A stretch of DNA of 64,000 nucleotides from assembly GCF_024363255.1 (NCBI RefSeq), contig NZ_AP026070.1, positions 2,418,001 through 2,482,000 on the forward strand, written 5' to 3'. The position numbers and the translations under genes were made by a program. Below, piece after piece: positions 24,874-46,291 of the stretch. The notes below the pieces were generated by a model that was given only the letters and a program-made list of their open reading frames with translations, was not told where the DNA came from and did no database searches. The stretch's first letter is position 1. Each line of letters opens with the position of its first letter. The DNA comes from Shewanella sp. NFH-SH190041 (GTDB lineage: Bacteria > Pseudomonadota > Gammaproteobacteria > Enterobacterales > Shewanellaceae).

Positions 24874-27800
24874 CTACTTTTGCCCTTCACAGTGAAGGAT
24901 CAGCAGATTAAGTTCACGTAAGGCGACAGAGAACTTAGCAAATTCGTGGCTCTGCGAAGTTTTGAAATCGGCCAACATATGGAACCAGCGTTCCAATAGC
25001 AGCTGATTGCTGTCTATCCATTGCTGGATAATACTATCGGCATCACAGCTGCTACTGCAGGTTCCCAGTACCACAGAGGTCAGCGACCGCTGTTGCCAGT
25101 CCAACTCTTCCCTGAATGCGGCTCTAGCAAGTGCCTGCCAGTGATTGGTCACTGGTTGAGCACTAATTTGATCCAAGAACCAATGCAGCTCGACCTGAGC
25201 ACCTAACTTAAAGTAGGTTTCTGCTACCAAGGCGATAGACTGCTGTTCCTGCTCGGCAATCTGAGCGATATCCATGGTTGAGAACAGACTGCTCATATTA
25301 GCCACCACAGCGGCTATTGATTCAGGTACCCCCTCGGCCATCAGGTGCTTAGCTTCCGCTTGCAATTCTGTCACTTCACTTTCAACCATAAAGTGATAAA
25401 TATTAGCTTTCAGTTCATCAAACACAGGCCGGTAAAAAGCAACCGTCTGTGCAATGTCCAAGGCACGGTTTCGATGCCGCAAGAACCAGCGACATGCCCG
25501 ACGCAGATTACGCCGTAACTGATGCAGCATTTCCCCTTGAACTTGAGCTGAAACATGCCCGTTAAGCTCAGTGATAGCACGAGTTAATTCAGTCAATCCA
25601 AAGACTTCGCGAGCCACAGTGTAACAGATAGCCGCTTCCGCAACTGAGGCACCGGTCTCATCTTGCATTCGTTGCACAAAATTGAGCCCCATATCATTGA
25701 CCAACTCATTCGCCAAAGATGTCGCAATAATTTCGCCCCGCAACGGGTGGTTAACCATACGTTCGGCATATTGCTGCTGCAACTGCGCGGGGAAGTAGGC
25801 AATCAACAGCTGACTTAACCAAGCATCATCAGTAATCTCGCTGGTTAACAGTTGCTCTTTAAGCACCATTTTGGCATAAGCCACCAACACCGACAGCTCT
25901 GGTCGCGTCAAAGGCTTACCGGCGGCTAAACGCTCTGCCAGCTCATCTTCACAGGGTAAAAACTCTAATTCTCGATCGAGTTTCCCCTCTTTTTCCAGAT
26001 AATGGATAAAACGGATTTGCTCTTTCAACTGATCCGCACCATACACCTGGGTGACAGAAATGGTACGAGTTTGATCATTACAATCCTGCAAGACAATCCG
26101 ACTGACTTCATCTGTCATCTCTTCCAGCAGACGATTGCGCTGTTTCATGGTCATTTCACCATCATCCACCAGCGCATTTAGTAAGATTTTGATATTGACC
26201 TCATTATCAGAACAATCTACCCCGCCGACATTATCGACAAAGTCAGTATTGATCCGCCCGCCATGTTGAGCATATTCAATCCGCCCCAACTGGGTACACC
26301 CAAGGTTACCGCCTTCGCCAACAATTTTAGCCTGCACTTCATCGCCATTAATTCTCAGAGCATCATTAGCTCTGTCACCCACTTCAGCATGGGACTCTGC
26401 TCGGGATTTGATATAAGTGCCAATCCCCCCATTCCAGATTAAATCGACCTGAGCTTTTAGCAGCGCCTGAATTAATTCTGTTGGTGTCATTGATTGTCGC
26501 TCAGTAAGCAGCAAGGCTTGCATTTGCGGTGTCAGCGCAATGGATTTCGCCTGACGGGAGAAAATCCCACCACCTTCTGAAATCAATGACTTGTCATAAT
26601 CCTCCCAGCTGGAACGTGGCAGCGCAAATAGCCGCTGACGCTCTGCATAACTGGTTTGTGGATCCGGTGTCGGGTCAATAAAAATGTGCAGATGGTTAAA
26701 TGCCCCCACTAAACAGGTATAGCGGGACAACAGCATACCGTTACCAAATACATCACCGGCCATATCGCCAATACCGACGCAAGTAAATGGTGTGGTCTGA
26801 CAGTCAATGGCCATCTCGCGGAAATGCCGCTTGACTGACTCCCATGCACCTTTGGCAGTAATCCCCATCTTCTTGTGGTCATAGCCATTACTGCCGCCCG
26901 ATGCAAATGCATCCCCAAGCCAAAAACCATATTCAATGGCAATGGCGTTAGCAATATCTGAGAATGTCGCGGTGCCCTTATCCGCCGCAACCACCAAATA
27001 AGGATCATCCTCATCATGGCGAACAACATCCGCCGGGGGCACAACGTCACCGTTAATGATATTGTCACTGATGTCCAATAAGCCGCGAATAAAGAGCTGA
27101 TAACAAGCTTGTCCCTCCGCAAAAAAGGCCTCTCTGCCGCCGTCTGTCGGCAACTGTTTACACACAAAGCCGCCTTTTGCACCAACAGGAACAATCACAG
27201 TATTTTTCACCTGCTGCGCCTTCACCAGCCCCAGCACTTCGGTACGAAAATCTTCCCGACGATCAGACCAACGCAAGCCGCCACGGGCAACTTTACCGCC
27301 ACGCAGATGCACCCCTTCTACTCGCGGAGAGTAAACAAAAATTTCAAACTTGGGTAAGGGGCGGGGCATTTCAGGGATCTGCTCAGGGGCAAATTTAAAT
27401 GAGATGTAATCTTTATCTGTCCCATTCCCACTTTGTTGATAAAAATTGGTTCGCAACGTGGCATGGATAAGATCCAGATAACGGCGAATAATTCTGTCGT
27501 CATCTAGACTCTCCACATCATCAAGCCGACGATTTACCTGCTCCAACAATTTATCTAATGTCCGAGTGCGCAAGCGTGGATTAAATTTACGGATAAACAT
27601 TTTCACCAGCAAATCGGCAATTTGCGGGTAACGACTGAAGGTTTCTTCGATATAAGCCTGACTAAACGTGGCATCAATCTGACGCATATATTTAGCATAA
27701 GCGCGAATAACCGAGACCTCCCGCCCCGTGAGCCCACTGGCTAGGACGATACGGTTGAAACCATCATCCTCTAACCTGCGGTTCCACACATCAGCCAGGG

Positions 27801-29715
27801 CCTGCTGGAATCTGTCCTGACTGTCGGCCAGATTATCTGTTTTACCGCCCTGTACTGTCATAAGAAAATCGAGGATCCAGTAGGTCTCTCCCGCAGCAGT
27901 AATCACCTCATAAGGGCGTTCGTTAATTACCCTGAGGCCAAAATTTTCCAGCATGGGTAACACATCAGACAGATGGATTGGCTCATCTTTATGAAACAGC
28001 TTAAGACGGACTTTATTGTCGGTCAGGGCCGTTTCCTGCGGCTGGTAAAACAACATGCCCAATTGATGGCTGTCATCCAACGCATCGAGCTGTTGCATAT
28101 CCACTACCGCAGAGCTTGGAAATACATCTTCTTTATAACTGCGGGGAAAAGCATTGGCATATTTTTTCCCCAGCCGATTACCTAAATCATCGCCCAAGGC
28201 GGTATTTACCGCCGAATAGAGCTTATCGTCCCAAGAGCGCGCTGCTTCGATTAAATCCCGCTCAATTGCTGCCACATCCACATCCATATTATTGTTTTCA
28301 ACATTGACGATATAGTGAGTCCGCGCCAACGTTGACTCGGAAAAATAGGTGGTAAACTCCACCTCATACTCACTGTTAAAATGCTTGGCTAAAATCGCCT
28401 GGGTGTCCTGTCGCAACTTGGTGTTATATCTATCCTTAGAGACATACACCATGCAGGAAAGAAAACGCCCAAATCCATCCCGACGGACAAACAATTTCAG
28501 TTTGTCCCTGTCCTGCATCTGCAGCACCCCACGGGCCAGTTCATACAACTCATCCACATTGGCCTGGATCAGTTCATCCCGGGGTAAATTCTCTAGGATG
28601 TTCATCAGTGCTTTATAGTCATGGGACTTGGGCGCTAATCCGGAGCGAACCATCACTCGGTGAACCTTCTGTGCCAATAGCGGAATTTCCCGGGGGCTAC
28701 TGTTATACAAATTAGAGGCATACAGACCTAAAAATCTGTCTTCGCCAATCACATTGCCTTTAGTATCGAACCGTTTAATGCCAATGTAATCTACATACGC
28801 AGGCCGATGCACCCGGCTTTTCGCCCGACTTTTAGTCAAAAGTAATAAACTGCTGTCCATCGCCTCACGCCGCGCCGTAGCCGACAAGCTAGACATCAGC
28901 AGTCCTTGCCCGGGTTTGGCATTGGGCTTATTCATCAATCCCAATCCAGATGACAGATCTGGCACCAGCTCCATATCACCTTGCACTTTTTTCAGATCGT
29001 ATCGACGGTAGCCAAGCAAAGTAAAGTGATGGTTTTTGAGGTAGGACAAGAAATTAACAGACTCTTCAAATTCCTGCATATCGCCGGGATACGGTCTGGA
29101 GGGCAACTCATCTATCGTATTTTGTAAAGTATCCGACATCGCTTGCCAATCATTCACCGCGGCGGCGACATCGGCCAATACAGACTGGATTTCCTGCTCT
29201 AAAGCGCGGATCTCTTCGCGACTACTCTGCCGGTCAATTTCAATGGCAAATACCGCCACTTTTTCTGCATCAAGTGGCGCTTCGTTAACTGGCCACAGCG
29301 CAGATACCCGACATGTATCCCGGCCAATGGCAAATGGCTTATGCAATACCATATGCGCTGTTATCCCCAACCGATTCAGCGCCATACCAACAGAATCCAC
29401 TAAAAATGGCATGTCGGGATGGATAATTTCAATAATTGAATGGGTAGACTGCCAGCCATCTTTGGCCTGACTTGGGTTCAATACCCGCAAATGCACCTCG
29501 CCCGAGGCTGTCACATTAAGGGCATTCCATAAACTCAGAGCCGCACCGTATAAATCACTGTCAGTGCGAGCATAAAGATCATCTTTTGCCATATTACCGT
29601 ATAGGCCATGGGCAAAGGATTCCACATGGGGGGCTAAGGACTTGGGAATATGGGTGTGAATGAGACTAACGACATTTTCCAGTAAAACTGAGGGTATTGC
29701 ATCTTTCAGAGCCAT
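24874..29715 (-). CDS. gdhB: NAD-specific glutamate dehydrogenase, large 180-kDa type
   Basis: Catabolic NAD-dependent glutamate dehydrogenase that deaminates glutamate to 2-oxoglutarate and ammonia. At 1613 residues it matches the large (GDH_2/Bac_GDH) class. The N-terminal half holds ACT-like regulatory segments (for example [16 protein letters not shown]). The catalytic centre has [57 protein letters not shown] and the NAD-binding stretch around [38 protein letters not shown] and [18 protein letters not shown] follow. The C-terminal third is helical. The start ATG at 29715 is preceded by AAGGAAACAGC. It is a single-gene unit closed by a terminator. An 8-bp hairpin (29789-29811) lies upstream and may be an operator or leader structure. 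Confidence 0.96.
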
Positions 29716-29788
29716 GTTGCTGTTTCCTTAAGCGTCTATGGCAGCGCTTTTTATTTTTAGAAACTCCGTATCATCTCCGGCGCCAATA

Positions 29789-29811
29789 TCACACAGGCCG
29801 GCACTGTGTGA
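29789..29811. promoter_or_regulatory. Perfect inverted repeat upstream of gdhB
   Basis: TCACACAG and CTGTGTGA are exact complements around a 7-nt GCCGGCA, 74-96 nt before the gdhB start codon. A second dyad, GTTAATC (29868-29874) and GATTAAC (29879-29885) around TATT, lies further out. The remaining parts of the 464-nt gap up to 30179 show only the terminator at 30122 and no gene. Protein bound, if any, is unknown. Confidence 0.4.
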
Positions 29812-30121
29812 AGAGTGTATTACTAAACATCACCCAGTTCGAGCAAAATTTTAGTGGTACATCCTCTGTTAATCTATTGATTAACCGGAGTAAGTTTTCT
29901 AATAACCTGCACTAATGGACAGATATCTTTACAAATTACCTACATTTACGACCCACGCTCTCACTAAATACACACCGGCAGTCCCAACCAACTAAAATAA
30001 ACTTTTCTTAGCAGCTAAGCACAAAGTATTCAGCATCAAATATGGGCGTTTTCCAAACAAGCAAGCGGTGAAGTACTCCTTTTGAATCCCCTATCTGATC
30101 CAATAGGCTATTTCGTTTAAG

Positions 30122-30153
30122 TCAAAAATAAAAGGGAGCAAGTTCGCTCCCTT
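30122..30153 (-). terminator. Rho-independent terminator of the DUF1302-RND operon
   Basis: On the minus strand AAGGGAGC pairs perfectly with GCTCCCTT around a 6-nt loop and runs into TTTTATTTTTG. It lies about 27 nt after the transporter gene stop, closing the four-gene operon. Confidence 0.9.
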
Positions 30154-30179
30154 CAAATACAACTAAATGACTTAATGGG

Positions 30180-32504
30180 TTATCCCTTTTGACCAGAGTT
30201 GCGCCAGAGTATGGCCGAAAGCGCGGGCAGAATAATGATGGCTCCGAGCATATTCACTAGGAACATAAAGGTAAGCAAAATGCCCATATCCATCTGGAAT
30301 TTTAACGCTGAGAAAAACCAGGTACTGACCCCTATAGCCAAGGTTAAACCAGTAAAGATCACCGCACTGCCCCGCTCCATTAAGGCTTCAAAATATGCTT
30401 GTTGTACCGCCATACCATCATTGAGCTTGGCTGACATAGTCGAAAGGATATAAATTCCATAATCAACCCCAATGCCTACCCCAAGTGCAATCACAGGTAA
30501 AGTGCTCACCGCAAGGCCAATGTGCAAATGAGTCATTAAAGCCTGCGCCAGTGTCGACACCACATACAGCGGCAAAATTACAGCAATAGTGGCTTTTAAA
30601 GAGCGGAAACTTAGCAAACAAAGGCCAAATACCGCTCCATAGACATATAACATCATCGGCAACTGAGCCGCTTCCACGGCTTCATTTGTCGCAGCCATCA
30701 CCCCAACCGGGCCAGACGCTAGGCGAAAAGTCAGTTGTGAGCTATTCATCTCTGCCGCAAGCATCTTCACCTTATCCACAACCGTGTTAATTGTGCCCGC
30801 CTTATGATCCTGCAAAAACAGATAAATCGGCATCACAGAGCAGTCTGAATTTAACAAACCTGATGAAGTCGGCACCCGACCGATAGCTTGCACTAAACTG
30901 GCGGTCGTGCGCGGCAGTAACTGCCATTTCGGATTGCCTTCATTAAATCCGGCATTCACTTTTTTGGCCACTGAAGCCAAACTCGCTGAAGACACCACGC
31001 CGGGGGTGTTAGCCGCCAGCCATTCAAACTCATCAATTTGACTTAATACATCATGGTAAGTACAAGCCTCAGGGAACGCCTCTACGATTACAGTCATTAC
31101 ATCGGTAGTAATGGAAAAATGATCGGTAATAAAAAACGTATCCTGATTATATCGGCTGTCTTGATGCAGCGCCGGAGCACCTGCATGTAAATCACCAATC
31201 TGCATACGGTCAGCCTGATACCAGCCAATACCGTAGAGCACCGCGGTAAACAGCAATACTGGAACCGCCACCTTTATCGATGCAAAACGAGACAGTGCGC
31301 GCCAAATCCCTTCAGCCCTGTCTTGTTGACGTCCGGATTGAGCCAAAGATTGATTGTCTAAGCGAGTATAAGAAAGCACCAACGGCAGCAGAATTAAGTT
31401 GGTCAAAATGATCACAGCAACACCCAATGAAGCTGAAATCGCCAGCTCTCGAATAATGCCTATATCAATTGCCAACAAGGTCAAAAACCCAACAGTATCT
31501 GACAGTAACGCCACCCCTCCTGGTACTAGTAATGCTCTGAAAGCCGCAGCTGCAGCGGCTTTAGTCTGCTGCCCTGCCAGCACTCGTCTGCGAACAGCAT
31601 TAATCATCTGCACGCCGTGACTGACCCCAATGGCAAAGACTAAAAATGGTACCAAAATCGACATGGGATCTAACCCAAGCCCCACCACGGTCAATAGTCC
31701 CAACTGCCAAATCACCGCGACCAAACTACATACCAGCGGTAATAGGGTTAGCATCAACGAATGGGAAAAGAAGTAGACCATCACCGCAGTGATCAAAATC
31801 GCGACTAAGAAAAACAGCACAACCCCTTGAGCACCATCTGCCACATCGCCAGCCATTTTGGCAAAGCCAATAATGTGGATTTTAATTTGGCCATGTTCAA
31901 ACTTTTGCCGCAGTTCCTGTTCTAATTGCCGAGCAAAGGCAATGGTATCAAGCGGCTTTCCTGTTTGTGGATCAAAGTCCATTAACTGGGCTGTCACCAT
32001 AGCCGCACTGTAATCTTCTGCAATTTGGCGACCGACAATCCCGGCTTTTTCAATATTTCCCCGGACAATTTGAAGACCTTGAGGAGTATTGTTGAAATCA
32101 GCAGGGATAACAGGGCCACCAGCGAAACCATCTTCAACAACTTCAGTAAAACGAGTGGATGGTGAAAAGACAGATTTAACCAGTGACCTATCTACTCCCG
32201 GAATAAAAAACAGCTGATCATGAACTTGCCGCAGAGTATCAAAAAACGCCGGGTTAAAAATATTGCCGCTGGTATCCTCCACCGCGACCATAATGCTATT
32301 AGCACCACCAAACTGCTGTTGGTGTTTAAGATAGGTCTGCATATATTCATGCTTGAGGGGAATATTTTTGACAAACGCCGCATCCATTCGCAGTTGACTG
32401 GCCTGATAACCCAGCAGCACGGTCAGCAGTGCAAACGACGTAATCACCCAAGCACGGTGACGAAATAAAAAAGACTCAAAACCATTGACCAGTTTATCTA
32501 ACAT
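30180..32504 (-). CDS. RND superfamily transporter, MMPL type
   Basis: A 774-residue inner-membrane transporter with the duplicated MMPL/RND layout. One helix near 18-36 is followed by a large periplasmic loop and five clustered helices (about 220-385, including GQGVVLFFLVAILITAVMVYF-type and VPFLVFAIGVSHGVQMINAVRRR). A second helix, loop and five-helix block follow near 410-770 (VIALGVGIGVDYGIYILSTM, AVIFTGLTLAIGVSTWFFS). The acidic residue in GVDYGIY is the expected proton-relay position. It is the last gene of the operon and starts 51 nt after the propeller gene with TGAGGT before the ATG. Members move lipids or hydrophobic compounds; the cargo here is unknown, and no membrane-fusion or TolC-type partner is present. 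Confidence 0.88.
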   Translation of the reverse strand: MLDKLVNGFESFLFRHRAWVITSFALLTVLLGYQASQLRMDAAFVKNIPLKHEYMQTYLKHQQQFGGANSIMVAVEDTSGNIFNPAFFDTLRQVHDQLFFIPGVDRSLVKSVFSPSTRFTEVVEDGFAGGPVIPADFNNTPQGLQIVRGNIEKAGIVGRQIAEDYSAAMVTAQLMDFDPQTGKPLDTIAFARQLEQELRQKFEHGQIKIHIIGFAKMAGDVADGAQGVVLFFLVAILITAVMVYFFSHSLMLTLLPLVCSLVAVIWQLGLLTVVGLGLDPMSILVPFLVFAIGVSHGVQMINAVRRRVLAGQQTKAAAAAAFRALLVPGGVALLSDTVGFLTLLAIDIGIIRELAISASLGVAVIILTNLILLPLVLSYTRLDNQSLAQSGRQQDRAEGIWRALSRFASIKVAVPVLLFTAVLYGIGWYQADRMQIGDLHAGAPALHQDSRYNQDTFFITDHFSITTDVMTVIVEAFPEACTYHDVLSQIDEFEWLAANTPGVVSSASLASVAKKVNAGFNEGNPKWQLLPRTTASLVQAIGRVPTSSGLLNSDCSVMPIYLFLQDHKAGTINTVVDKVKMLAAEMNSSQLTFRLASGPVGVMAATNEAVEAAQLPMMLYVYGAVFGLCLLSFRSLKATIAVILPLYVVSTLAQALMTHLHIGLAVSTLPVIALGVGIGVDYGIYILSTMSAKLNDGMAVQQAYFEALMERGSAVIFTGLTLAIGVSTWFFSALKFQMDMGILLTFMFLVNMLGAIIILPALSAILWRNSGQKG

Positions 32505-32555
32505 ACCTCAGGCCCTATTGTTATTGTTTTCAGGACAAAACCAAATTACCGGCGA

Positions 32556-33590
32556 TTACTCACTGACCGGTAGGAGCATGAGCCCCGCAGTACCCGCTAG
32601 CCATACCTGCCCTTCGGCACTACGAGCAATCGCGGCAAGGCTCTCTCCCTGATGTTTGTTAAGGGACAACACCTCACCATCGTTCGCTAATTTGATGACC
32701 AAGCCACTGTTGCCCACCAGCCAGAAACTCCCCTTGTTATCCAGCAGCGCCGCATTAATTGTGGCAGTCACAGGCAACGGAACCTGTTGCCAGCTCTTAA
32801 GCGCCTTATCAGCTTTAAATACATGCCCGCGTAAGCCCATCACATATACCGCATCCGACGTTTCTAGGGCATTAAACATGGAGCCATCGTAGCCCAAATC
32901 TAACGCAGTAAATTGCTTGCCTTTATCATCAGAAACAGCCACAAGTCCCAACTCGCCCACCAGCAATAACCGACCATCTGACAATGGCAAAATACGGTTA
33001 AAATGCGGTAATAAAAAAGCGCGTTCCGACTGATACATCGCCATATCGCTCAGCTTTAAGTCATTGAGATAATCAACGTCCTCAGGAAATAACAGCTCAT
33101 CATGAAACTCCTCTTGCCAAGTCGTTCCGCCATCGAGTGTGCGGTAAAACAAGCCATAGGCCCCGACCGCAATCCCTTCATTGCGATTGAAAAAATAAAC
33201 ATCTAAAAATGGTTTTTCCATCGCCCGAGATTGCATCTGTACCTGCCAACTCAATCCACCATTAGTGCTATGCAATATCGTTGCATCATGACCCACCGCC
33301 CAGCCGAGACGATCATTGAGGAAAAAAACTTTGGTCAATAAACTGCCCACCGGAGTTTTAACTTGCTGCCACCCTTGAGGCTGTTGCAATAAAATGTGTC
33401 CTCGCTCGCCTACGGCTACCAAAGCATCACCTACTGGCGCTATATCCAATAACAGTGAAGATGTTGCCAAAGGTTGAATTTGCCCATGCGTTGCAGAAAC
33501 TTGCTCAGCAAAAAGTGGGGAGGAAGACAAAGAAAACAGAAATGCAGCAGAAACTGTCCATTTTAAGCGTCGAAGCATGCAAAACCACAT
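32556..33590 (-). CDS. YCF48-type periplasmic beta-propeller protein
   Basis: A 344-residue exported protein built of YCF48/BNR-like blades. The start at 33590 is chosen because AAGGA lies about 7 nt upstream and leads into a signal peptide (RLKWTVSAAFLFSLSSSPLFA). Repeats include GWAVGHDATILHSTNGGLSW, GIAVGAYGLFYRTLDGGTTW, GLVAVSDDKGKQF and a C-terminal GQVWLAGTAGLMLLP, each with the G-x-x-G and DGG-x-W character of the family. Such propellers act as assembly factors or scaffolds (Ycf48 in photosystem II). Between DUF1329 and an RND transporter it is likely a periplasmic connector or adaptor, which is inference. Confidence 0.83.
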   Translation of the reverse strand: MWFCMLRRLKWTVSAAFLFSLSSSPLFAEQVSATHGQIQPLATSSLLLDIAPVGDALVAVGERGHILLQQPQGWQQVKTPVGSLLTKVFFLNDRLGWAVGHDATILHSTNGGLSWQVQMQSRAMEKPFLDVYFFNRNEGIAVGAYGLFYRTLDGGTTWQEEFHDELLFPEDVDYLNDLKLSDMAMYQSERAFLLPHFNRILPLSDGRLLLVGELGLVAVSDDKGKQFTALDLGYDGSMFNALETSDAVYVMGLRGHVFKADKALKSWQQVPLPVTATINAALLDNKGSFWLVGNSGLVIKLANDGEVLSLNKHQGESLAAIARSAEGQVWLAGTAGLMLLPVSE

Positions 33591-33644
33591 ACAAACTTCC
33601 TTATTTGAACGGGGCACAATACCCTGTACCCCGCAGAGATGGGA

Positions 33645-35009
33645 TTATCGGATACCGGAGCGGCGCAGCGCAGCCGGGGTAAACTGAGACTCCTTCAAAT
33701 TGGCATCGAAGTCATACATTTGGCCTTCATTATCCAGACCAATTGCCAGATAGCGCCTTGACTGCAAATCGTGGAAGACCTCGAGCGTACTCCAGTGTGT
33801 TGGCACTTCGTAATAATTCAACCCATGGGCAAACGCGACACGATACAACTCGCCACGATTGTCATACATATCTTCCGCAGAGACCTGCCAAGAATCTTCA
33901 TCCAGATAGAATACCCGGGTTTGGTATATGTGCCGCATGCCTTCTTTCAAGGTGGCTTTCACTACCCACACTCGGTGTTTTTCCCAACGTACTAAATCAG
34001 GATTAATATGCCCCGCTTTCAAAATGTCATCATAAGTGATCTTATCTGAATGAAGCCGATAGTCGTTATAAGGAATTAAAATTTCCTTTTTCCCCACTAA
34101 CTCCCAGTTATAACGGGATGGCGAGCCGTTAAACATATCGTAATCATCTGTGGTTCTGAGCCCATCAGACACGGTTCCTGGTGTATCAAAGGCAACATTC
34201 GGCGCTTTACGCACCCGGCGTTGACCTGTGTTATAGGTCCAAGCTTGACGCGGCAAAGCCTCTTGATCCATGGTTTCTTTCACCAGCAACGCAGTGCCTG
34301 CCAAACGTGCGGGTTGGGAGACTACCTGCTTAAAATAAAATAGAGTATTATTATCAGCCAATTCCTGAGGCGTGGCTTCTGGGCGGGAATACTCAAATCT
34401 TAACTGCTCAGATAACTCCACTAAGGTATAGCTACCTGATTTAGTCGGTGCTGCTTGGTTTCGCTCAGTTTCCGCATCAACACCGCGGAAACGCAAAATG
34501 TGATTCCAAATAGCTTCAAGCCCATTGGCAGGGATTGGAAATGGCACACCAATGGCAGCACCTTTTAAACCATTGCCATCAGAGACCAATTCAGCATTCA
34601 ATGCGTTTGCCTTGGTCGCATCATAAACATATTGTGGAAACGCAGCGGTTCGTCGAGTTTGATAAACATTCATTTTGAAGGTATCAGGATATAGCTCTAA
34701 AAGCGCAATCTCACCGGGCGTCAGAATGTTTTTATATTTCGCCTTATTGGCATTGGTTACGGTATAGAGGATTTTATCATTAGGGAAAGGATCCGCATGG
34801 TGGTCACCTTTCTGATAGCCGGCAATCGGCTTGCTAATGCCCCCATCCCAAGCGGGGATACTGCCATCCTGATTTCCCGCCATTTCAGCGCCAATTGGCG
34901 TCAGAGTCTGGCCTAATTTAGCCGCCTCAGCCTGCGATACTTTCGCTGTGGCTGCCCCAGAGGCCAATCCAAGCAATACCGCGGCAGACAATATCGGTAA
35001 CGTCTTCAT
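33645..35009 (-). CDS. DUF1329 family periplasmic protein (LolA/LolB-like)
   Basis: A 454-residue exported protein of the DUF1329 family. The start at 35009 has AAGGAC upstream and gives a signal peptide (MKTLPILSAAVLLGLASGAATA then KVSQAEA). Family features are LGQTLTPIGAEMAGNQDGSIPAWDGG near the mature N-terminus and GQRRVRKAPNVAFDTP. DDYDMFNGSPSRYNWELVGKKE, LVRWEKHRVWVVKATLKEG and DEDSWQVSAEDMYDNRGELYR follow. The family is predicted to share the open-barrel fold of LolA/LolB, so it may bind an acyl chain or other hydrophobic molecule in the periplasm. No lipobox is present. It starts 13 nt after the DUF1302 stop, so the two are almost certainly cotranscribed and probably interact. Confidence 0.9.
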   Translation of the reverse strand: MKTLPILSAAVLLGLASGAATAKVSQAEAAKLGQTLTPIGAEMAGNQDGSIPAWDGGISKPIAGYQKGDHHADPFPNDKILYTVTNANKAKYKNILTPGEIALLELYPDTFKMNVYQTRRTAAFPQYVYDATKANALNAELVSDGNGLKGAAIGVPFPIPANGLEAIWNHILRFRGVDAETERNQAAPTKSGSYTLVELSEQLRFEYSRPEATPQELADNNTLFYFKQVVSQPARLAGTALLVKETMDQEALPRQAWTYNTGQRRVRKAPNVAFDTPGTVSDGLRTTDDYDMFNGSPSRYNWELVGKKEILIPYNDYRLHSDKITYDDILKAGHINPDLVRWEKHRVWVVKATLKEGMRHIYQTRVFYLDEDSWQVSAEDMYDNRGELYRVAFAHGLNYYEVPTHWSTLEVFHDLQSRRYLAIGLDNEGQMYDFDANLKESQFTPAALRRSGIR

Positions 35010-35022
35010 ACTATTGTCCTTA

Positions 35023-37074
35023 TTAGATTGAATACTTGATATTGAAAGACACATAATCCCGATCAGCCATCAGGTTTGTTGTCCCTACCCCACCAAAGAA
35101 TGCGTTATAAGAGATATCCAATCCCCAACGGCTTTGATAGTCAAAGTTCACCCCGGCGGCAACAGACTTACGCCCCTCAGTAAACAAGAACATAGGATCT
35201 GGCGTGATACCATCCACATCGTGGGAGAAAATCAACCGGGCTGACATATTGACCCCAGCGAATACATTGAAATAATCCGCTTTACCGACCAAACGATATC
35301 CCCAAGCAAAATCCGTTGGGAAAGGGTTAGTTTCTGGACCATTATGCAAAGCTTCAATAATACCCGGCATATCAGGGTTTCCACCTGAACGACCGGTACC
35401 TGGTCCATTTAGTCTTAACTCATCGTGGGATGGCATATCATGGATCCACACCGCCCCAAATTCAGCAAGAGCAGTAAGATTATCCGTGCCTAATGTCGGA
35501 CCAAACAGGTGAGTAAAGGTCATCTGCGCCTGAGTGGTATCACGCAGAATATAGCCCTGGGCATACTCTCCCGGACCAATTGGCTTCACAAAATCACCGT
35601 ACTGAGACAAGCCGTCAAGATCAGGACGCAACCCTGCATTGGCGAGCTGCTGAGGCATAGCTTCAAATAACAACTCAACATCATCAATCTGTAGTGGCTC
35701 ATCCTGACGATGGGCAATCTCACCGGCAAAAGAGGTATCACCTAACAGGGTATTAAAGCTAAAGCCATACAGCTTGATGTCTTCAGGATACACAATCTGT
35801 GCTTTAGAAAAGCTCCCCAGTTGCAGCATCACATCTCGGTCAATTTGACCCGCATGCTGGCCAATAACACCTAAATCTTTCAGTAAGGTTGTGGACGTAA
35901 AATCTGCTGTGGTACCGGATATTAATGGCCGGCGGCTATGATAATTAATGAAATACAGCCCAAATTCTGTTTCACCTAATTCCGGGGCGTAATACCCTAA
36001 CTTAATACCATACTGACCACCATCTTCCGGCTCCATTTCATCCTGAACCAAAGTCACCTTAGTCGGATAAGCCAATGCCAACTGCACGAGTGTTTCTGTC
36101 GGGATAGTTTGCCCTGACGCAATCATGGCACCCAAGCGGTTATATTCTGCGGTCAAAAAATCCAGATTAATGTCTGGGTTAGCGTTAAACCCTAACTGGG
36201 CATTTTGCTGATAACCACCAAAACCAGCAAAATCATTGGTGGCAAAGAAAGAACCTGGGGGTGGCACCCAAATCGGTTTCCAATCATATTGATAAAAGGC
36301 TTCCAGTGAGAGACTTTCGCTCACGCCCAAAGACGCCCACACCATACCCTGTGGCCTAAATGCCTCTTTCAACTCGGCTCCAGGGGCATTCAGGATATTC
36401 AGATCTACCGCATTAATCACACTGATACCATGGGGGATTAATGTGCTTTCCCCCCAAGAAATCACCTGATTACCCACACGAACCGACAGCGGGTTAGCAC
36501 CGTCATTAAAATCAAAATCAGCATATGCAAAAGCATCTAGCAAACGGATGTCTTTACAGATCACCTCAGATGAACGTTTATCCTCACAGGGATCAAACTC
36601 GCGTCCAGTTAAAGGATCACTGAATCCAAAATCACCTTTCACTTTTTTATTGTCGTAAAAATACATACCTCGCACGAAAATACCGTAATTTTCGTAGCTC
36701 AAAGAAAGCTCGTGCAGCCCCTTTATGATTTCTGAGGTGGTGTCACCCTGTGCATACAGCAGGTTACTGAGGTCATTATTGCTGGAATAGGAGCCCGGTT
36801 GGGCCCAAATTTCCTGCGGAGTATATTTGGTATTACCGAATGCTGAGTAGCCGCTCCAATCAAATCGAGGATGGTTAACTTTACCAATTAAATCCCAATC
36901 CCGGTCTTCAACTCGCCAGCTTGCGCCTGCAGTCCAGGTGGAATCAAAAGAACCATCAACATCTCCCCAATTGAATGAGAATGCGCTGGCATCCGGGATC
37001 ACTCCCATGCTGATTGCCGACGCCACCCCCAATGCGATCGCCGACTTGTTAAATCTACCTTTAACAATCTTCAT
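35023..37074 (-). CDS. DUF1302 family outer-membrane protein
   Basis: A 683-residue exported protein expected to form an outer-membrane beta-barrel. It has a signal peptide (hydrophobic SAIALGVASAISMGVIPDASA then FSFNWG) and DGSFDSTWTAGASWRVEDRDWDL-like strands. It also has VRVGNQVISWGESTLIPHGISVIN, a long central part rich in alternating strands, and a C-terminal FGGVGTTNLMADRDYVSFNIKYSI with the aromatic/hydrophobic ending typical of barrels. First gene of the four-gene operon, with GGAGAG before the ATG and a 16-nt palindrome 71 nt upstream. DUF1302 and DUF1329 genes are regularly paired in proteobacteria, often near lipid, sterol or alkane metabolism; no such enzyme gene is adjacent here. 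Confidence 0.9.
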   Translation of the reverse strand: MKIVKGRFNKSAIALGVASAISMGVIPDASAFSFNWGDVDGSFDSTWTAGASWRVEDRDWDLIGKVNHPRFDWSGYSAFGNTKYTPQEIWAQPGSYSSNNDLSNLLYAQGDTTSEIIKGLHELSLSYENYGIFVRGMYFYDNKKVKGDFGFSDPLTGREFDPCEDKRSSEVICKDIRLLDAFAYADFDFNDGANPLSVRVGNQVISWGESTLIPHGISVINAVDLNILNAPGAELKEAFRPQGMVWASLGVSESLSLEAFYQYDWKPIWVPPPGSFFATNDFAGFGGYQQNAQLGFNANPDINLDFLTAEYNRLGAMIASGQTIPTETLVQLALAYPTKVTLVQDEMEPEDGGQYGIKLGYYAPELGETEFGLYFINYHSRRPLISGTTADFTSTTLLKDLGVIGQHAGQIDRDVMLQLGSFSKAQIVYPEDIKLYGFSFNTLLGDTSFAGEIAHRQDEPLQIDDVELLFEAMPQQLANAGLRPDLDGLSQYGDFVKPIGPGEYAQGYILRDTTQAQMTFTHLFGPTLGTDNLTALAEFGAVWIHDMPSHDELRLNGPGTGRSGGNPDMPGIIEALHNGPETNPFPTDFAWGYRLVGKADYFNVFAGVNMSARLIFSHDVDGITPDPMFLFTEGRKSVAAGVNFDYQSRWGLDISYNAFFGGVGTTNLMADRDYVSFNIKYSI

Positions 37075-37145
37075 TTAGCTTCTCTCCATAACCTGCCAGG
37101 ATTCGTTGTTATAGGAATTTCAGCCAACATCTTGTTAGCTTGCAA

Positions 37146-37161
37146 GTAACACCATTGTTAC
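37146..37161. promoter_or_regulatory. Palindromic operator candidate before the DUF1302 operon
   Basis: GTAACACCATTGTTAC is a perfect 6-4-6 dyad, 71 nt upstream of the DUF1302 start codon, in a 316-nt AT-rich gap (37075-37390) that holds no gene. The size and symmetry fit a TetR- or GntR-type site, but no regulator gene is adjacent. Confidence 0.4.
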
Positions 37162-37390
37162 AGCAATTAGCATAACTGGGCAAGGCAGAAGTGCATAAAA
37201 TTTTTAGAAGAATTGGGCACTTACCCGGCATTGAAGTGAATATGCAGTCAGCTGTATTTGAATTTCAGCTCGGTAATAAGATATGCGCAGGATCACAGAA
37301 ACTATTATTGAATGAATATCAATAAGATAGTGAAATGTCTGTTACTGATACGGATTTAATCAATCGTTTGAAGTATTTACTCTAATTTGG

Positions 37391-37621
37391 TTAAGCATCC
37401 CCTGATTGACATTTATCCAGGGCAATAAATTCACCACTTGGTCCTAATGTGAGACAAAACCAGCCATGAAGCCCATGTACAGAGACAAATCGTCGGAAAT
37501 GTCGGCAATGTATCCATAATGTGCGTCCACAGGTATCTATAACCTCCAGACGGCTGACCTCACCACGATAATAGGGCAAGAATGCCCGATAGGAAAAATG
37601 AAGAGAAAATACATGTTGCAT
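37391..37621 (-). CDS. DUF2835 family protein
   Basis: A small 76-residue protein of unknown function, recognised by HVFSLHFSYRAFLPYYRGEV near the N-terminus, a central strand VSRLEVIDTCGRTLWIHCRHFRRFV and GLHGWFCLTLGPSGEFIAL near the C-terminus. The ATG at 37621 begins the conserved part and has GGGGG just upstream, so upstream in-frame starts that would cross the pepN terminator are rejected. Family members are about 70 residues, soluble and found mainly in marine gammaproteobacteria. It follows pepN but a terminator lies between them. Confidence 0.82.
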   Translation of the reverse strand: MQHVFSLHFSYRAFLPYYRGEVSRLEVIDTCGRTLWIHCRHFRRFVSVHGLHGWFCLTLGPSGEFIALDKCQSGDA

Positions 37622-37644
37622 TCTGCCCCCTGTTAATGGGCCAT

Positions 37645-37670
37645 AAAAAAGGCTTGGATAACCAAGCCTT
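37645..37670 (-). terminator. Rho-independent terminator of pepN
   Basis: Perfect 9-bp stem AAGGCTTGG/CCAAGCCTT with an ATAA loop; on the minus strand it continues into TTTTTT. It lies between pepN and the DUF2835 gene. Confidence 0.92.
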
Positions 37671-37697
37671 AATAAACACATTAGTCAGCAAATAAAA

Positions 37698-40259
37698 TTA
37701 TGCCAGTGCTTTTTCTACTTTTTCATAGAGATCACGGGCTAAATCAGGCATAGCTTGCAATTGAGCAAGACACGCTTTCATCTGTTGCTGACGAGTGGCA
37801 TCAAACTTACTAAATTGGATAAGCGGGATCATAATCCGTGCTGCTACCTGAGGGTTTACCTTGTTCAGCTCAATCAAGCAATCAGTTAAAAACTGATAAC
37901 CCTGACCGTCTTTACGGTGGAATTGTGCAGTATTTCCCGCAGCAAAACTACCAATTAAAGCGCGTACCCGGTTAGGATTTTGCATACTGAAAGCCCCATG
38001 GGTTCGCAATACTTTAATCTGATCAATGACCGAATCGCTGTTTTGCGTAGCTTGCAGCGTAAACCATTTATCCATCACCAGTGGCGTACCTTGCCACTGA
38101 GTCTCAAACTCAACCATCAAGGTATCACGACAGGGTAAATTAGCCTGATTAGCGGCAACTAAAGCCCCTAAAGCGTCTGTCATATTCTCAGCTTGAGCAA
38201 ACTGGTATTGCACTAAGGTTTCATGGGCTTCATTCACTTGGCAAAGCCAGTTCAATGCTGCATTTTTCAATGCTCTTGCCGCTGGCGTATCGACAAATCC
38301 CATCGCTCGATAGCTGGCTAATAGTTCATCTTCACACTGACTGGCCATCTCTTCGAGCACAAACTCCCGGGCAGCAAAGAGATGATCCAGTGCCACGGTA
38401 TCAGCCTGTTCAATCAAAGCTTGGGCAGATGGGATATTCAGTATTTCGGCCACCAAGGCAGGGTCCAGTTGACTATCTAATAATGCACCACGGAAAGCAT
38501 CCGTTACGCGAGGATCCAGCACCATACCCTCGCCTTGAGCCAATTTGGCGACATTATCCCAAATAGCCTGACTGACTAATGCCACTGAAGCTTCCCAGCG
38601 AGCAACGTCACTGGCAGCATAACGCATCAAATGCACTAGTTGATCCACAGTAAAGCGATATTTGAGCCGCACCGGTGCAGAGAAATTCTGCAGCAGTGAT
38701 GGCACCACTTGGCAATCAATATTATCGAACACAAAAGTTTGCTGTTTCTCTTTAACATCCAGCACCTTGGATAGTAAGGATTGCCCGTCAGCCCCCAGCA
38801 GTTCAATATCAAAAGGAATATGTAAGGGAGCTGCCTGCTCTCCGGCAACCGGATTTGTTTGACTGATCGTCAAACTATAACGGCGTAATTCAGCATCATA
38901 ATGATCGCTAACCGTAACCACCGGTGTACCGGCCTGCTCATACCAATGACGGAACTGAGTTAAATCAACGCCGGATGCATCTTGCATTGCAGAAACAAAG
39001 TCATCGCAGGTTACCGCCTGGCCATCATGACGCTCGAAGTAGAGTTTCATCCCCTGTTGAAACCCTGCTTCCCCCAGTAGCGTATGCATCATACGAATAA
39101 CTTCCGCGCCTTTGTTGTAAACAGTCACGGTATAAAAGTTATTCATTTCAATCACAGACTGAGGGCGAATAGGGTGAGCCATAGGGCCTGAATCTTCAGC
39201 AAACTGCTGGTTCTGGATCACTTTAATCGCATGGATACGATTAACAGCGCGAGATCCCATATCTGAACTGAACTCCTGATCCCTAAATACGGTTAACCCC
39301 TCTTTTAAGCTAAGTTGGAACCAATCCCGGCAGGTGACCCGATTACCGGTCCAGTTATGGAAATACTCATGACCAACAACGGACTCAATACCATGATAAT
39401 CATCATCAGTCGCACTGGCAGTATCAGCCAACACATACTTAGTATTGAAAATATTCAGGCCTTTGTTTTCCATCGCCCCCATATTGAAGAAGTCCACCGC
39501 GACCAACATATAAATATCTAGATCGTATTCCAGACCAAAACGGCGCTCATCCCAAGCCATCGCATTTTTCAAAGATGCCATAGCATGGCCGGCTTTAGAT
39601 AAATTGCCCTTATCCACAAACACTTGCAGCGTCACTTCCCGACCACTCATGGTCGTAAAACTATCCTGTAACAGGTCAAAGTCACCGGCAACTAGGGCAA
39701 ACAAATAGCTTGGCTTTGGAAATGGGTCTTCCCAACAAGCAAAATGACGACCATTATCCAACTTACCTGATGCAACCAGATTACCGTTACTGAGTAAAAA
39801 CGGCTGGCTGCTATCGGCCTCAATACGAACAGTATATCGGGCTAATACATCAGGCCGGTCAAGGAAATAGGTGATGCGACGGAACCCTTCGGCTTCACAC
39901 TGAGTACAATATGCCCCATCGGACATATACAGCCCTTCTAAGCTCGAATTGCCAGCTGGGTCCAGTAAAGTAACAATTTCTAAGGTAAAGATGTCAGCAT
40001 CAGTCGTTACTGTCAGGGCCTGTTCAGTCAGTTGATATTCAGCGTCGGTGCCATCAATTTTTACTGACTCCAACTGCATTGACTCACCGTCTAATACCAG
40101 AGATGCTTCCGCTGCCCCAAGGCGACGAACCTGACTGGTGGCGATCACTCGGGTTTGATGCGGGGCTAAATTCACATCCAGCGCAATCGTCTCAATAGTA
40201 AAATCCGGAGTACGGTAATCAGTAATATGTTTCGCTTGTGTTTGTGACATATCTGCCAT
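37698..40259 (-). CDS. pepN: Aminopeptidase N (M1 family)
   Basis: Cytoplasmic zinc aminopeptidase that removes N-terminal residues from peptides in late protein turnover. With the start at 40259 (AAAGAGGTC upstream) the protein has 853 residues. Its zinc motif HEYFHNWTG falls at H297, E298 and H301, the same numbers as in E. coli PepN, which supports the start. The substrate-amine motif GAMENKGLN and the tyrosine region TVTVYNKGAEVIRMM are present, followed by a long helical C-terminal domain. A frame extension of 49 codons upstream lacks homology. The gene ends with a strong terminator. Confidence 0.96.
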   Translation of the reverse strand: MADMSQTQAKHITDYRTPDFTIETIALDVNLAPHQTRVIATSQVRRLGAAEASLVLDGESMQLESVKIDGTDAEYQLTEQALTVTTDADIFTLEIVTLLDPAGNSSLEGLYMSDGAYCTQCEAEGFRRITYFLDRPDVLARYTVRIEADSSQPFLLSNGNLVASGKLDNGRHFACWEDPFPKPSYLFALVAGDFDLLQDSFTTMSGREVTLQVFVDKGNLSKAGHAMASLKNAMAWDERRFGLEYDLDIYMLVAVDFFNMGAMENKGLNIFNTKYVLADTASATDDDYHGIESVVGHEYFHNWTGNRVTCRDWFQLSLKEGLTVFRDQEFSSDMGSRAVNRIHAIKVIQNQQFAEDSGPMAHPIRPQSVIEMNNFYTVTVYNKGAEVIRMMHTLLGEAGFQQGMKLYFERHDGQAVTCDDFVSAMQDASGVDLTQFRHWYEQAGTPVVTVSDHYDAELRRYSLTISQTNPVAGEQAAPLHIPFDIELLGADGQSLLSKVLDVKEKQQTFVFDNIDCQVVPSLLQNFSAPVRLKYRFTVDQLVHLMRYAASDVARWEASVALVSQAIWDNVAKLAQGEGMVLDPRVTDAFRGALLDSQLDPALVAEILNIPSAQALIEQADTVALDHLFAAREFVLEEMASQCEDELLASYRAMGFVDTPAARALKNAALNWLCQVNEAHETLVQYQFAQAENMTDALGALVAANQANLPCRDTLMVEFETQWQGTPLVMDKWFTLQATQNSDSVIDQIKVLRTHGAFSMQNPNRVRALIGSFAAGNTAQFHRKDGQGYQFLTDCLIELNKVNPQVAARIMIPLIQFSKFDATRQQQMKACLAQLQAMPDLARDLYEKVEKALA

Positions 40260-40372
40260 GACCTCTTTTCGTCTCCCGCAAATGGCTAGGGTTCTCTCAA
40301 ACAGTGAAATCAACGTGCCTGAGTAACTGTTATTCCAACCGCCATCGTCAATGCAGGATTTGTTTACAAAAA

Positions 40373-40396
40373 ACGCGCTAATCAGCGCGTTTTTAT
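40373..40396. terminator. Rho-independent terminator between prc and pepN
   Basis: ACGCGCT and AGCGCGT form a perfect 7-bp stem with a 4-nt loop. It is flanked by A-runs on the left and T-runs on the right, so it can work in both directions; it serves prc on the minus strand. Confidence 0.85.
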
Positions 40397-40412
40397 TGTG
40401 AATCAAATTTTC

Positions 40413-44997: not shown

Positions 44998-45660
44998 ATG
45001 GGCTTACAATCCATAGACAATAGCAACACACCACGCAATGACAGCTCTTCCCCTGTGGTATTGTGCCCGGCCTGCGATCTTGCGGTGAAAAAGTGCCAAT
45101 TACCACAAGGGGTCAGGGCCCTTTGCCCACGCTGTCAAACCGCACTATATGACACGCCCTACTGCTCTATTAATGGCATGCTCGCGCTATGTCTAACGGC
45201 ATTTTTCCTTTATTGGCCTGCCAATATGCTCCCGGTGATGGAATTACAGTTTTTCGGTTCAGTCAGAACAACCACTGTATTGCAAGGCGCAACTGCGGTT
45301 ATCGCACAGGGCTATCCCTTAGTTGGTGCTGCCGTGATGATTGCAGCGGTTATCGCCCCAGGCCTACTGATCAGTTCAATCCTGCTGCAGATTGTGCTCA
45401 TCAAATCGGGACTTACATCCTCTTTGAGTCAGAAAGTGTATAAATTGCTATTGACCCAACAGAGCATATTGACCCAATTAAGCATGTTGGAAATCTATGT
45501 GATCAGTTTTCTCGTCAGTGCTTTTCAACTATCCGATCACGCTGATATTCATTTCAGCATAGGTACCTTCTGTTTTGCTGGACTGTTTTTAGCCGTACTG
45601 TTTTTACTGCGAGAATATGATTTAAAACATATGTGGGGCTATTTGAATAATGAAGCATGA
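44998..45660 (+). CDS. PqiA/LetA-type membrane protein, first half
   Basis: A 220-residue inner-membrane protein equal to the N-terminal half of LetA (YebS). It has a zinc ribbon (CPACDLAVKKC then CPRC) and four hydrophobic helices, including CLTAFFLYWPANMLPVMEL, AVMIAAVIAPGLLIS and FAGLFLAVLFLL, with the PANMLPV motif of PqiA domains. In E. coli both PqiA repeats are fused in a single protein of about 427 residues. Here a stop at 45660 ends the first repeat and the second is a separate gene overlapping by 11 nt. The LetAB system moves phospholipids between the two membranes together with LetB, encoded next. AGGA about 14 nt upstream is a weak ribosome site. Confidence 0.88.
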   Translation: MGLQSIDNSNTPRNDSSSPVVLCPACDLAVKKCQLPQGVRALCPRCQTALYDTPYCSINGMLALCLTAFFLYWPANMLPVMELQFFGSVRTTTVLQGATAVIAQGYPLVGAAVMIAAVIAPGLLISSILLQIVLIKSGLTSSLSQKVYKLLLTQQSILTQLSMLEIYVISFLVSAFQLSDHADIHFSIGTFCFAGLFLAVLFLLREYDLKHMWGYLNNEA

Positions 45661-46291
45661 TGTGCAAGGACGTGATTTGGGCTTATGTCTTTGCCCTGTT
45701 TGCCAGAAAAACAATGCGCTCAGTGCTCACCATTGCAGCCGCTGCGGCACCCGCTTGCAATACCGGCGCAAAATTAGCCTGCAACAGAGTTGGGCGTTAC
45801 TACTCACCGCTGCTATTTTATTGATCCCAGCCAATATTTATCCCATTACCATAGTAACGAGTCAGGGGCGGGTCGCCTATGACACGATTTTTTCTGGCAT
45901 CGCCCACTTGGTACACCTGGATATGTTGCCAATCGCCATCATAGTGTTTACCGCCAGTATCGCTGTTCCTTGGCTAAAAATTATTGGTCTGGCAATTTAT
46001 CTGCTGGCGATCAGTTTTAAGCTGCCCATCCCCAAGCGGGTATTAATGGCAGGTTTTCATATCATTGAATGGATTGGCCGCTGGTCCATGCTGGATCTAT
46101 TTGTTATATCCATCACAGTGGCACTGGTTAATATGGGGCAATTAATGGATGCCAAACCCGGCCCTGCCGCAACAGCTTTCGCGCTGGTCATTCTACTGAC
46201 CCAATTAGCAGCCAAAGTATTGGACACCCGCTTACTGTGGGACCGACTGGACGTACAAGATGACGCAAACACAATCCCCCAAAATCGTTAA
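45650..46291 (+). CDS. PqiA/LetA-type membrane protein, second half
   Basis: A 213-residue protein equal to the C-terminal half of LetA. It has its own zinc ribbon (CPVCQKNNALSAHHCSRCG), then WALLLTAAILLIPANIYPI, a helix pair with FTASIAVPWLKIIGLAIYLL, and the conserved GFHIIEWIGRWSMLDLFVISI near 140-160, which is the PqiA family hallmark. It starts 11 nt inside the first half gene and ends 32 nt inside letB, so translation of the three is probably coupled. Two half-size subunits presumably form one LetA-like complex with LetB. Confidence 0.88.
   Translation: MKHDVQGRDLGLCLCPVCQKNNALSAHHCSRCGTRLQYRRKISLQQSWALLLTAAILLIPANIYPITIVTSQGRVAYDTIFSGIAHLVHLDMLPIAIIVFTASIAVPWLKIIGLAIYLLAISFKLPIPKRVLMAGFHIIEWIGRWSMLDLFVISITVALVNMGQLMDAKPGPAATAFALVILLTQLAAKVLDTRLLWDRLDVQDDANTIPQNR

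Follow-up and report, generated by a model that had tools for sequence, protein, structure and literature searches.

The four-gene operon at 37074–30180 of the window (the whole analysed stretch of 64,000 nucleotides from Shewanella sp. NFH-SH190041) is very probably a tetrapartite transporter of the Ame type, whose cargo, small hydrophobic molecules that partition into membranes, would pass between the inner and the outer membrane. It is an additional member of the kind described as AmeABCD rather than a new type of system. The evidence comprises the gene identities and order, the co-inheritance of the genes, the predicted folds of two products (A and B), a conserved motif in the pump (D) and a conserved chromosomal locus. 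The sequence-only reading of this region, an envelope-spanning four-part system most likely with a hydrophobic cargo, is supported by the families, by their co-occurrence and by the published relatives. On the other hand, the joint function is not unexplored: AmeABCD, made up of the same parts, was published in 2018 together with data on mutants (PMC6394551). What is added here is the history of the pepN-gdhB locus, the TM4 signature of the pump, the numbers of B relative to D, and a steroid-linked branch, the last being the subject covered by our literature search.

Operon layout and the four products

The genes have the order A-B-C-D on the minus strand, with strong domain matches for A, B and D and a clear one for C (Table 1). 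The Pfam families and the ORF positions confirm the earlier description of four genes running in one direction with gaps of 13, 54 and 51 nt; these gaps hold given the B start at 35009 and the C start at 33590, both of which have earlier alternatives in the ORF list. The starts of A, B and C look like signal peptides, as judged by eye.

Table 1. Features of the operon and its surroundings (positions in the window)
Feature	Position	Strand	Details
Gene A, DUF1302 outer-membrane barrel	37074-35023	minus	683 aa; Pfam DUF1302, E=5e-159
Gene B, DUF1329 periplasmic carrier (predicted)	35009-33645	minus	454 aa; Pfam DUF1329, E=8e-156
Gene C, YCF48-like beta-propeller, presumed periplasmic	33590-32556	minus	344 aa; Pfam PSII_BNR/YCF48, E=2e-16
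Gene D, HAE3/AmeD-type MMPL/RND inner-membrane pump (predicted)	32504-30180	minus	774 aa; Pfam MMPL, E=4e-23
Terminator 3' of D	30154-30131	minus	10-bp stem, 4-nt loop, T-rich tail
Hairpin after pepN	37670-37649	minus	9-bp stem with T tail
Small gene (DUF2835) separating pepN from gene A	37621-37394		
pepN, conserved upstream neighbour, outside the transporter	37698-40406	minus	Pfam Peptidase_M1 + DUF3458
gdhB, NAD-glutamate dehydrogenase, conserved downstream neighbour, outside the transporter	24874-29715	minus	Pfam Bac_GDH_CD

The terminator proposed earlier behind the operon is indeed there, and its stem is the longest among eight terminator-like sites in the interval 29000–38500. Terminator-like sites in this interval do not exceed chance (8 against 9.1 expected), nor do promoter-like sites (12 against 15.3 expected). 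A special regulatory palindrome in front of the operon is rejected. The clear hairpin, 37670–37649, is situated directly behind pepN and before the DUF2835 gene, and hence is probably the pepN terminator rather than an operator of the A-B-C-D operon. The interval 37040–37420 yields just one perfect short hairpin, 8 bp at 37046–37067, inside the start of gene A, and the remaining hairpin arms there are imperfect or far apart. MetJ control of the operon, considered from the literature on metboxes of DUF1302 genes (PMC3228920), was dropped; in that report a Kangiella DUF1302 gene is listed with potential metboxes, and homologues in other Alteromonads are given without them. At 44998–48893, on the opposite strand and unlinked to the operon, the window also contains LetAB-like genes, encoding a PqiA protein and an MlaD/MCE protein with seven matched stretches; the likeness of the operon to LetAB drawn in the sequence-only reading goes no further than analogy.

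The predicted structure of A is an 18-stranded OprD/AlgE-like barrel. The identity in the structure alignment with OprD/Occ-type porins is about 11%, and the search of solved structures by sequence gives one match, at the chance level (E 0.29). PA3923, a DUF1302 protein of P. aeruginosa, is reported to be a laminin receptor (PMC6890786), a role that is outside what the transporter explanation predicts.

The model of B has the LolA fold in residues 160–454, which bears out the LolA-like call made earlier for DUF1329, plus an N-terminal extension. The fold is common to LolA, LolA3 and LolB (PDB 9tp6, 3bk5, 4z48, 3buu and others), but B alone adds the N-terminal part, and, unlike these proteins, it has an RND pump as the gene partner. 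The function of LolA3 is itself described as open (PMC13103446). The C profile finds the Ycf48 structures 5ojr and 2xbg (E about 1e-40).

D scores 82.5 bits with the MMPL family in two stretches, the cut-off being 20.5, and thus belongs to the RND superfamily. With TIGR00921 (HAE3) the score is 178.8 bits over residues 15–763, below the curated cut-off of 351.9; as far as profiles can tell, D resembles HAE3 over the full length without formal membership in TIGR00921. A crude hydropathy scan features hydrophobic clusters at 228–426 and 615–759 with a long loop between them; it leaves single helices unresolved and misses TM1. The domain searches gave no membrane-fusion or TolC-type match among the four products, and so a classical tripartite HAE1 RND efflux pump is rejected, as it had been in the sequence-only reading.

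By profile search, the RND/MMPL relatives of D are HpnN, MmpL transporters and NPC1-related proteins (PDB 5khn, 6wu0, 7nvh, 8qeb), from which D is distinguished by Ser-His..Gln in TM4. To our knowledge, MmpL transporters and NPC1-related proteins have no partners of the A, B or C kind. HpnN, an HAE3 member moving hopanoids, is reported to work without co-transcribed partners (PMC6394551). In TM4, Ser295-His296-x2-Gln299 is present in all 120 strong D rows of the alignment, and so is Gly-x-Gly-x-Asp681-Tyr682-x2-Tyr685 in TM10. In ten weaker rows the His column contains five His, four Asp and one Asn. The four Asp rows come from loci L137, L138, L140 and L141, where the C profile finds nothing; at the same time, His in TM4 is not strictly tied to C, as no C was found for L136 or L132, both of which have His. 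We take Asp at the position of the TM4 His to be a part of the proton relay in MmpL3 and HpnN. Since TM4 of D has no Asp of the kind known from other RND pumps, ordinary proton coupling of D cannot be assumed, and D may couple to protons via a His-Asp rather than an Asp-Asp pair.

A smaller related module was seen in nine sampled genomes of 1.8–2.9 Mb. In it, the genes for a LolA-like protein, an MMPL pump and a barrel remotely like DUF1302 follow one another. The four loci with Asp in TM4 represent this module, and no YCF48 gene was found in them.

Co-inheritance of the genes and the pepN-gdhB locus

The survey of other genomes proposed along with the sequence-only reading was run, and the co-occurrence of the four genes is widespread, their linkage lying well beyond chance. 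In a sample of 199 Pseudomonadota genomes, full-length B (DUF1329 with at least 186 bits) is present in 26, at no fewer than 93 places. Strong D (above 800 bits) is present in exactly the same 26 genomes, at 41 places or more, and in none of the 173 others (profile search, matches with E up to 1e-30). These 26 genomes fall in 11 family codes and are not 26 independent events. Strong DUF1302 is found in 28 genomes, that is, in the same 26 plus two lacking full-length B and strong D, both of which are fragmented assemblies (360 and 410 contigs).

All 93 places of B are covered by 90 loci, 89 regions and the operon studied. All four genes are present in 26 of them, A and B without C/D in 45, and B only in 14; the remainder are three B-C-D loci, one C-D-B locus and one mixed array. 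C lies within 79 nt of D on the same strand for each of the 30 D genes in these loci. In one case (L043, G078:C3:5914-25008) the array A-B-B-A-B-C-D was observed, with duplicated A/B before one C/D pair.

The second set was centred at D and comprised 80 loci from named genomes, the best 80 of at least 575 relatives, some of the loci ending near a contig edge. Here 47 loci have all four genes, 18 have C and D, six have B-C-D, five have D only, three have A-C-D, and one has A-B-D; C is found in 74 of the 80 and none was found in six. The arrangement A-B-C-D on one strand is seen in 42 of the 47 four-gene loci and, with an extra B, in one more, the 47 loci coming from six phyla to judge by their record titles. 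In the 75 loci with exactly one copy of each gene, comparing the distances pair by pair among the four proteins gives correlations of 0.67–0.89, whereas the shuffled control gives at most 0.16 in 300 permutations. Relatives of D (E up to 1e-30) also occur on 40 of 72,556 plasmid records, 20 of these 40 being from Pseudomonas, Cupriavidus or Caballeronia.

The cassette lies between pepN and gdhB-pyrD. The neighbours scanned at the locus are pyrD, gdhB, DUF2835, pepN and a tail-specific protease, none of which is catabolic. Of 123 D loci, 29 contain pepN, the operon studied included (counted by hand), and gdhB is present too in 20 of these, that is, in 19 besides the operon studied. The pepN-linked loci come from Shewanella, Alteromonas, Glaciecola, Rheinheimera, Litorilituus and other named sources, and from further genomes of the family codes f1, f2, f8, f10 and f15. 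The cassette is not universal in the host's order: strong D is present in six of 21 sampled genomes of the same order, in all six beside pepN and gdhB, and 15 genomes are without the cassette.

The D tree was built by FastTree and has long branches; only its starred clades are used here, namely, the clade of the operon's D and a 28-row clade considered below. The operon's D belongs to a starred clade of 19 rows, all of them pepN-linked, and within it to a starred group of six, the other five being the genus-mate L034 and four named loci of Shewanella. The pepN-gdhB site is an old conserved locus and no catabolic island. Three pepN-linked loci (L050, L054, L057) contain B-C-D with DUF1302 not detectable; their outer-membrane partner may be supplied from elsewhere.

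The second, split system and the steroid-linked branch

The same genome contains a second A/B pair, in the order B then A, at about 2.061–2.064 Mb (locus L033, G000:C1:2053670-2072770), and, about 100 kb from it, a second C/D pair at about 1.958–1.961 Mb (locus L122, G000:C1:1950000-1969000). L122 also has a divergent HsaA relative (376.9 bits, cut-off 450) and a reductase, and L033 has SDR, MaoC, thiolase and enoyl-CoA hydratase genes. Situated between the two, L231 encodes an HsaC relative (282 bits) and an IpdE2-like dehydrogenase (117 bits), the cut-off being 450 for both, as well as a CoA-transferase subunit, a ChsH2-type protein and others. Judging by these scores, the named matches are homologues of steroid-ring-degradation enzymes, below the curated cut-offs and uncertified. 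Taken together, the markers of L122, L231 and L033 probably indicate a steroid-catabolism region.

The D gene of L122 belongs to the 28-row clade of the D tree. As markers we used 14 proteins of this genome from L122, L231 and L033, requiring at least 50% identity over 60% of the length. Steroid-type markers are present in 22 of the 28 loci of this clade and in none of the 95 other D loci; the clade was chosen after its neighbours had been seen, and the markers were then counted over all 123 D loci. If L122, the source of two queries, is set aside, the count is 21 of 27. Nine of the 22 marker loci have HsaA-like genes, ten have the SDR-MaoC-thiolase set, and the remaining three are limited to one or two further markers. 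That the SDR-MaoC-thiolase set acts on steroids is what we infer from its company in the host genome.

Genes of acyl-CoA catabolism were found near 11 of 24 B loci without C/D vs. three of 20 control regions (one-sided Fisher p=0.03), an enrichment that is only mild and comes from four genomes with unbalanced controls (two vs. five loci for G082). The 24 loci are the part, within these four genomes, of a total of 59 (45 also have A, 14 have B alone), L033 and the loci of other genomes being left out.

A limited search found no publication naming an Ame-type system in steroid degradation, although one may exist elsewhere. The steroid-linked branch offers concrete genes for an open question, the passage of steroids across the Gram-negative envelope.

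Published relatives, cargo and direction of transport

AmeABCD of Castellaniella defragrans 65Phen is described as a tetrapartite HAE3-type transporter (PMC6394551). It is composed of the same four families (DUF1302, DUF1329/LolA-like, COG4447 propeller, HAE3/COG1033 RND) in the same A-B-C-D order, and the proteins are of 605, 451, 316 and 787 aa, compared with 683, 454, 344 and 774 aa in the operon studied. The latter has DUF1302, DUF1329, YCF48/COG4447 and MMPL/HAE3 in the AmeABCD order, and the families, the order and the motif together argue for its membership in the Ame type. The difference is in the setting, as AmeABCD is part of an island for monoterpene catabolism, with monoterpenes as its inducers, whereas the operon studied sits between pepN and gdhB.

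In P. putida, PP_0765/PP_0766 (DUF1302, DUF1329), the periplasmic PP_2018 and the transporter PP_2019 are reported to be needed on Tween 20 (PMC10866462). As here, a periplasmic protein and a transporter, the latter of the multidrug-efflux type, work alongside DUF1302 and DUF1329, and we infer that PP_2018 is YCF48-like and PP_2019 is AmeD-like. However, judging by the locus numbers the two pairs are apart, whereas the operon studied holds all four genes together. The co-folding in that report features a strong PP_2018-PP_2019 contact and weak predicted contacts of the DUF1329 protein to the barrel and to the transporter.

Two further likenesses are from aromatic catabolism. Four-gene cassettes with COG4447, COG1033, PF07044 and DUF1302 are present in aromatic-degradation regulons of the Betaproteobacteria and are regulated together with aromatic catabolism (PMC6449761). 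The 'nanopod' cluster of a benzene-degrading strain of the Desulfobacterota, with DUF1329, YCF48-related, MMPL and porin-like proteins, is linked to aromatic catabolism as well (PMC13101534), and the same source gives a second-hand report of a phenanthrene growth phenotype of a relative. The growth phenotypes described for the relatives concern hydrophobic substrates, that is, monoterpenes (PMC6394551), Tween 20 (PMC10866462) and phenanthrene (PMC13101534).

In the proposed mechanism, D would be a proton-driven RND pump in the inner membrane and C its partner, a periplasmic propeller. B, the LolA-fold carrier, would hold the cargo and either shuttle across the periplasm or bridge to A, the putative 18-stranded OprD/AlgE-like outer-membrane channel. 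The D-C partnership and the role of B as a shuttle or a bridge to A agree with the P. putida co-folding (PMC10866462). The hand-over between the parts and the proton drive are proposed, and so is the substrate class, which is taken from published mutants and from catabolic neighbours of the relatives. Since the operon studied is the old copy in a conserved locus, its cargo is more likely to be some common lipophile, for example fatty acids, than a rare xenobiotic.

As for the direction, uptake or two-way supply is slightly favoured over export, because many genomes hold more B than D and because the relatives sit in catabolic clusters. Full-length B genes outnumber strong D genes in 14 of the 26 genomes, equal them in 12 and are never fewer (up to nine B and five D candidates were scored per genome); examples are at least 9 to 1 in G054 and 6 to 1 in G082. 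Such numbers fit one energiser serving several receptors.

The rival that fares best is pure efflux or solvent tolerance, the four parts pumping apolar compounds from the inner membrane out through A; we hold it to be a serious possibility, if somewhat short of an even chance. The precedent among RND pumps is mostly export, which counts in its favour. Export is also how the authors of AmeABCD read their data: the deletion lowered both growth on apolar monoterpenes and tolerance to them, limonene included, and Nile Red accumulation was slightly higher in the presence of CCCP (PMC6394551). Similarly, the AphS/AphR/AphT regulons are interpreted as a means to withstand toxic aromatics and the stress caused by solvents (PMC6449761). 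However, the efflux of preloaded Nile Red is reported to be almost identical with and without AmeABCD, and acetate restored the growth of the ame mutant in limonene up to 5 mM, as would also be expected from a defect in carbon uptake (PMC6394551). Thus these data leave room for uptake, although the reduced growth of the mutant above 5 mM limonene counts against it. Moreover, B exceeds D in 14 genomes with no opposite case, which is the opposite of the pattern in which many pumps share one TolC.

The next rival, envelope lipid homeostasis, is rather doubtful. Here, in line with the sequence-only reading, the operon would move an endogenous lipid between the membranes, and the catabolic relatives would be later specialisations. 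This agrees with the complete copy in a conserved locus whose scanned neighbours are non-catabolic, with the fold of lipoprotein carriers in B, and with the transport of hopanoids by HpnN, an HAE3 member (PMC6394551), but the published growth phenotypes of the relatives concern hydrophobic carbon sources. Finally, that the four genes are mere neighbours with no joint function is very improbable and is rejected: A/B and C/D pairs do occur apart, but B and D occur in one and the same set of 26 genomes out of 199, protein distances are strongly correlated among the four, loci from six phyla keep one gene order, and a joint Tween 20 phenotype is published for P. putida (PMC10866462).

Within the preferred explanation, an Ame-type transporter of hydrophobic molecules, a stronger version of uptake may be considered, which we find unlikely. 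It holds that Ame-type systems are uptake machines with the RND pump working inward, so that a single C/D engine would power several A/B pairs of receptor and carrier, each specific to its substrate, much as many receptors depend on one TonB complex, and the transfer from the soluble carrier B to the pump D would be like that from NPC2 to NPC1.

In itself the operon is old but unremarkable, one more representative of a transporter type on which a single dedicated mutant study was found, and its value is that of a clean, non-catabolic copy for testing the direction and the substrate. Two by-products of the analysis, the TM4 His signature of the pump lineage and the steroid-linked branch, matter more than the operon itself. 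If the pump does work inward, Ser-His..Gln in TM4 and the propeller C would be the mark of an altered energy coupling, and the second A/B and C/D pairs would supply the route, so far missing, by which Gram-negative bacteria import steroids.
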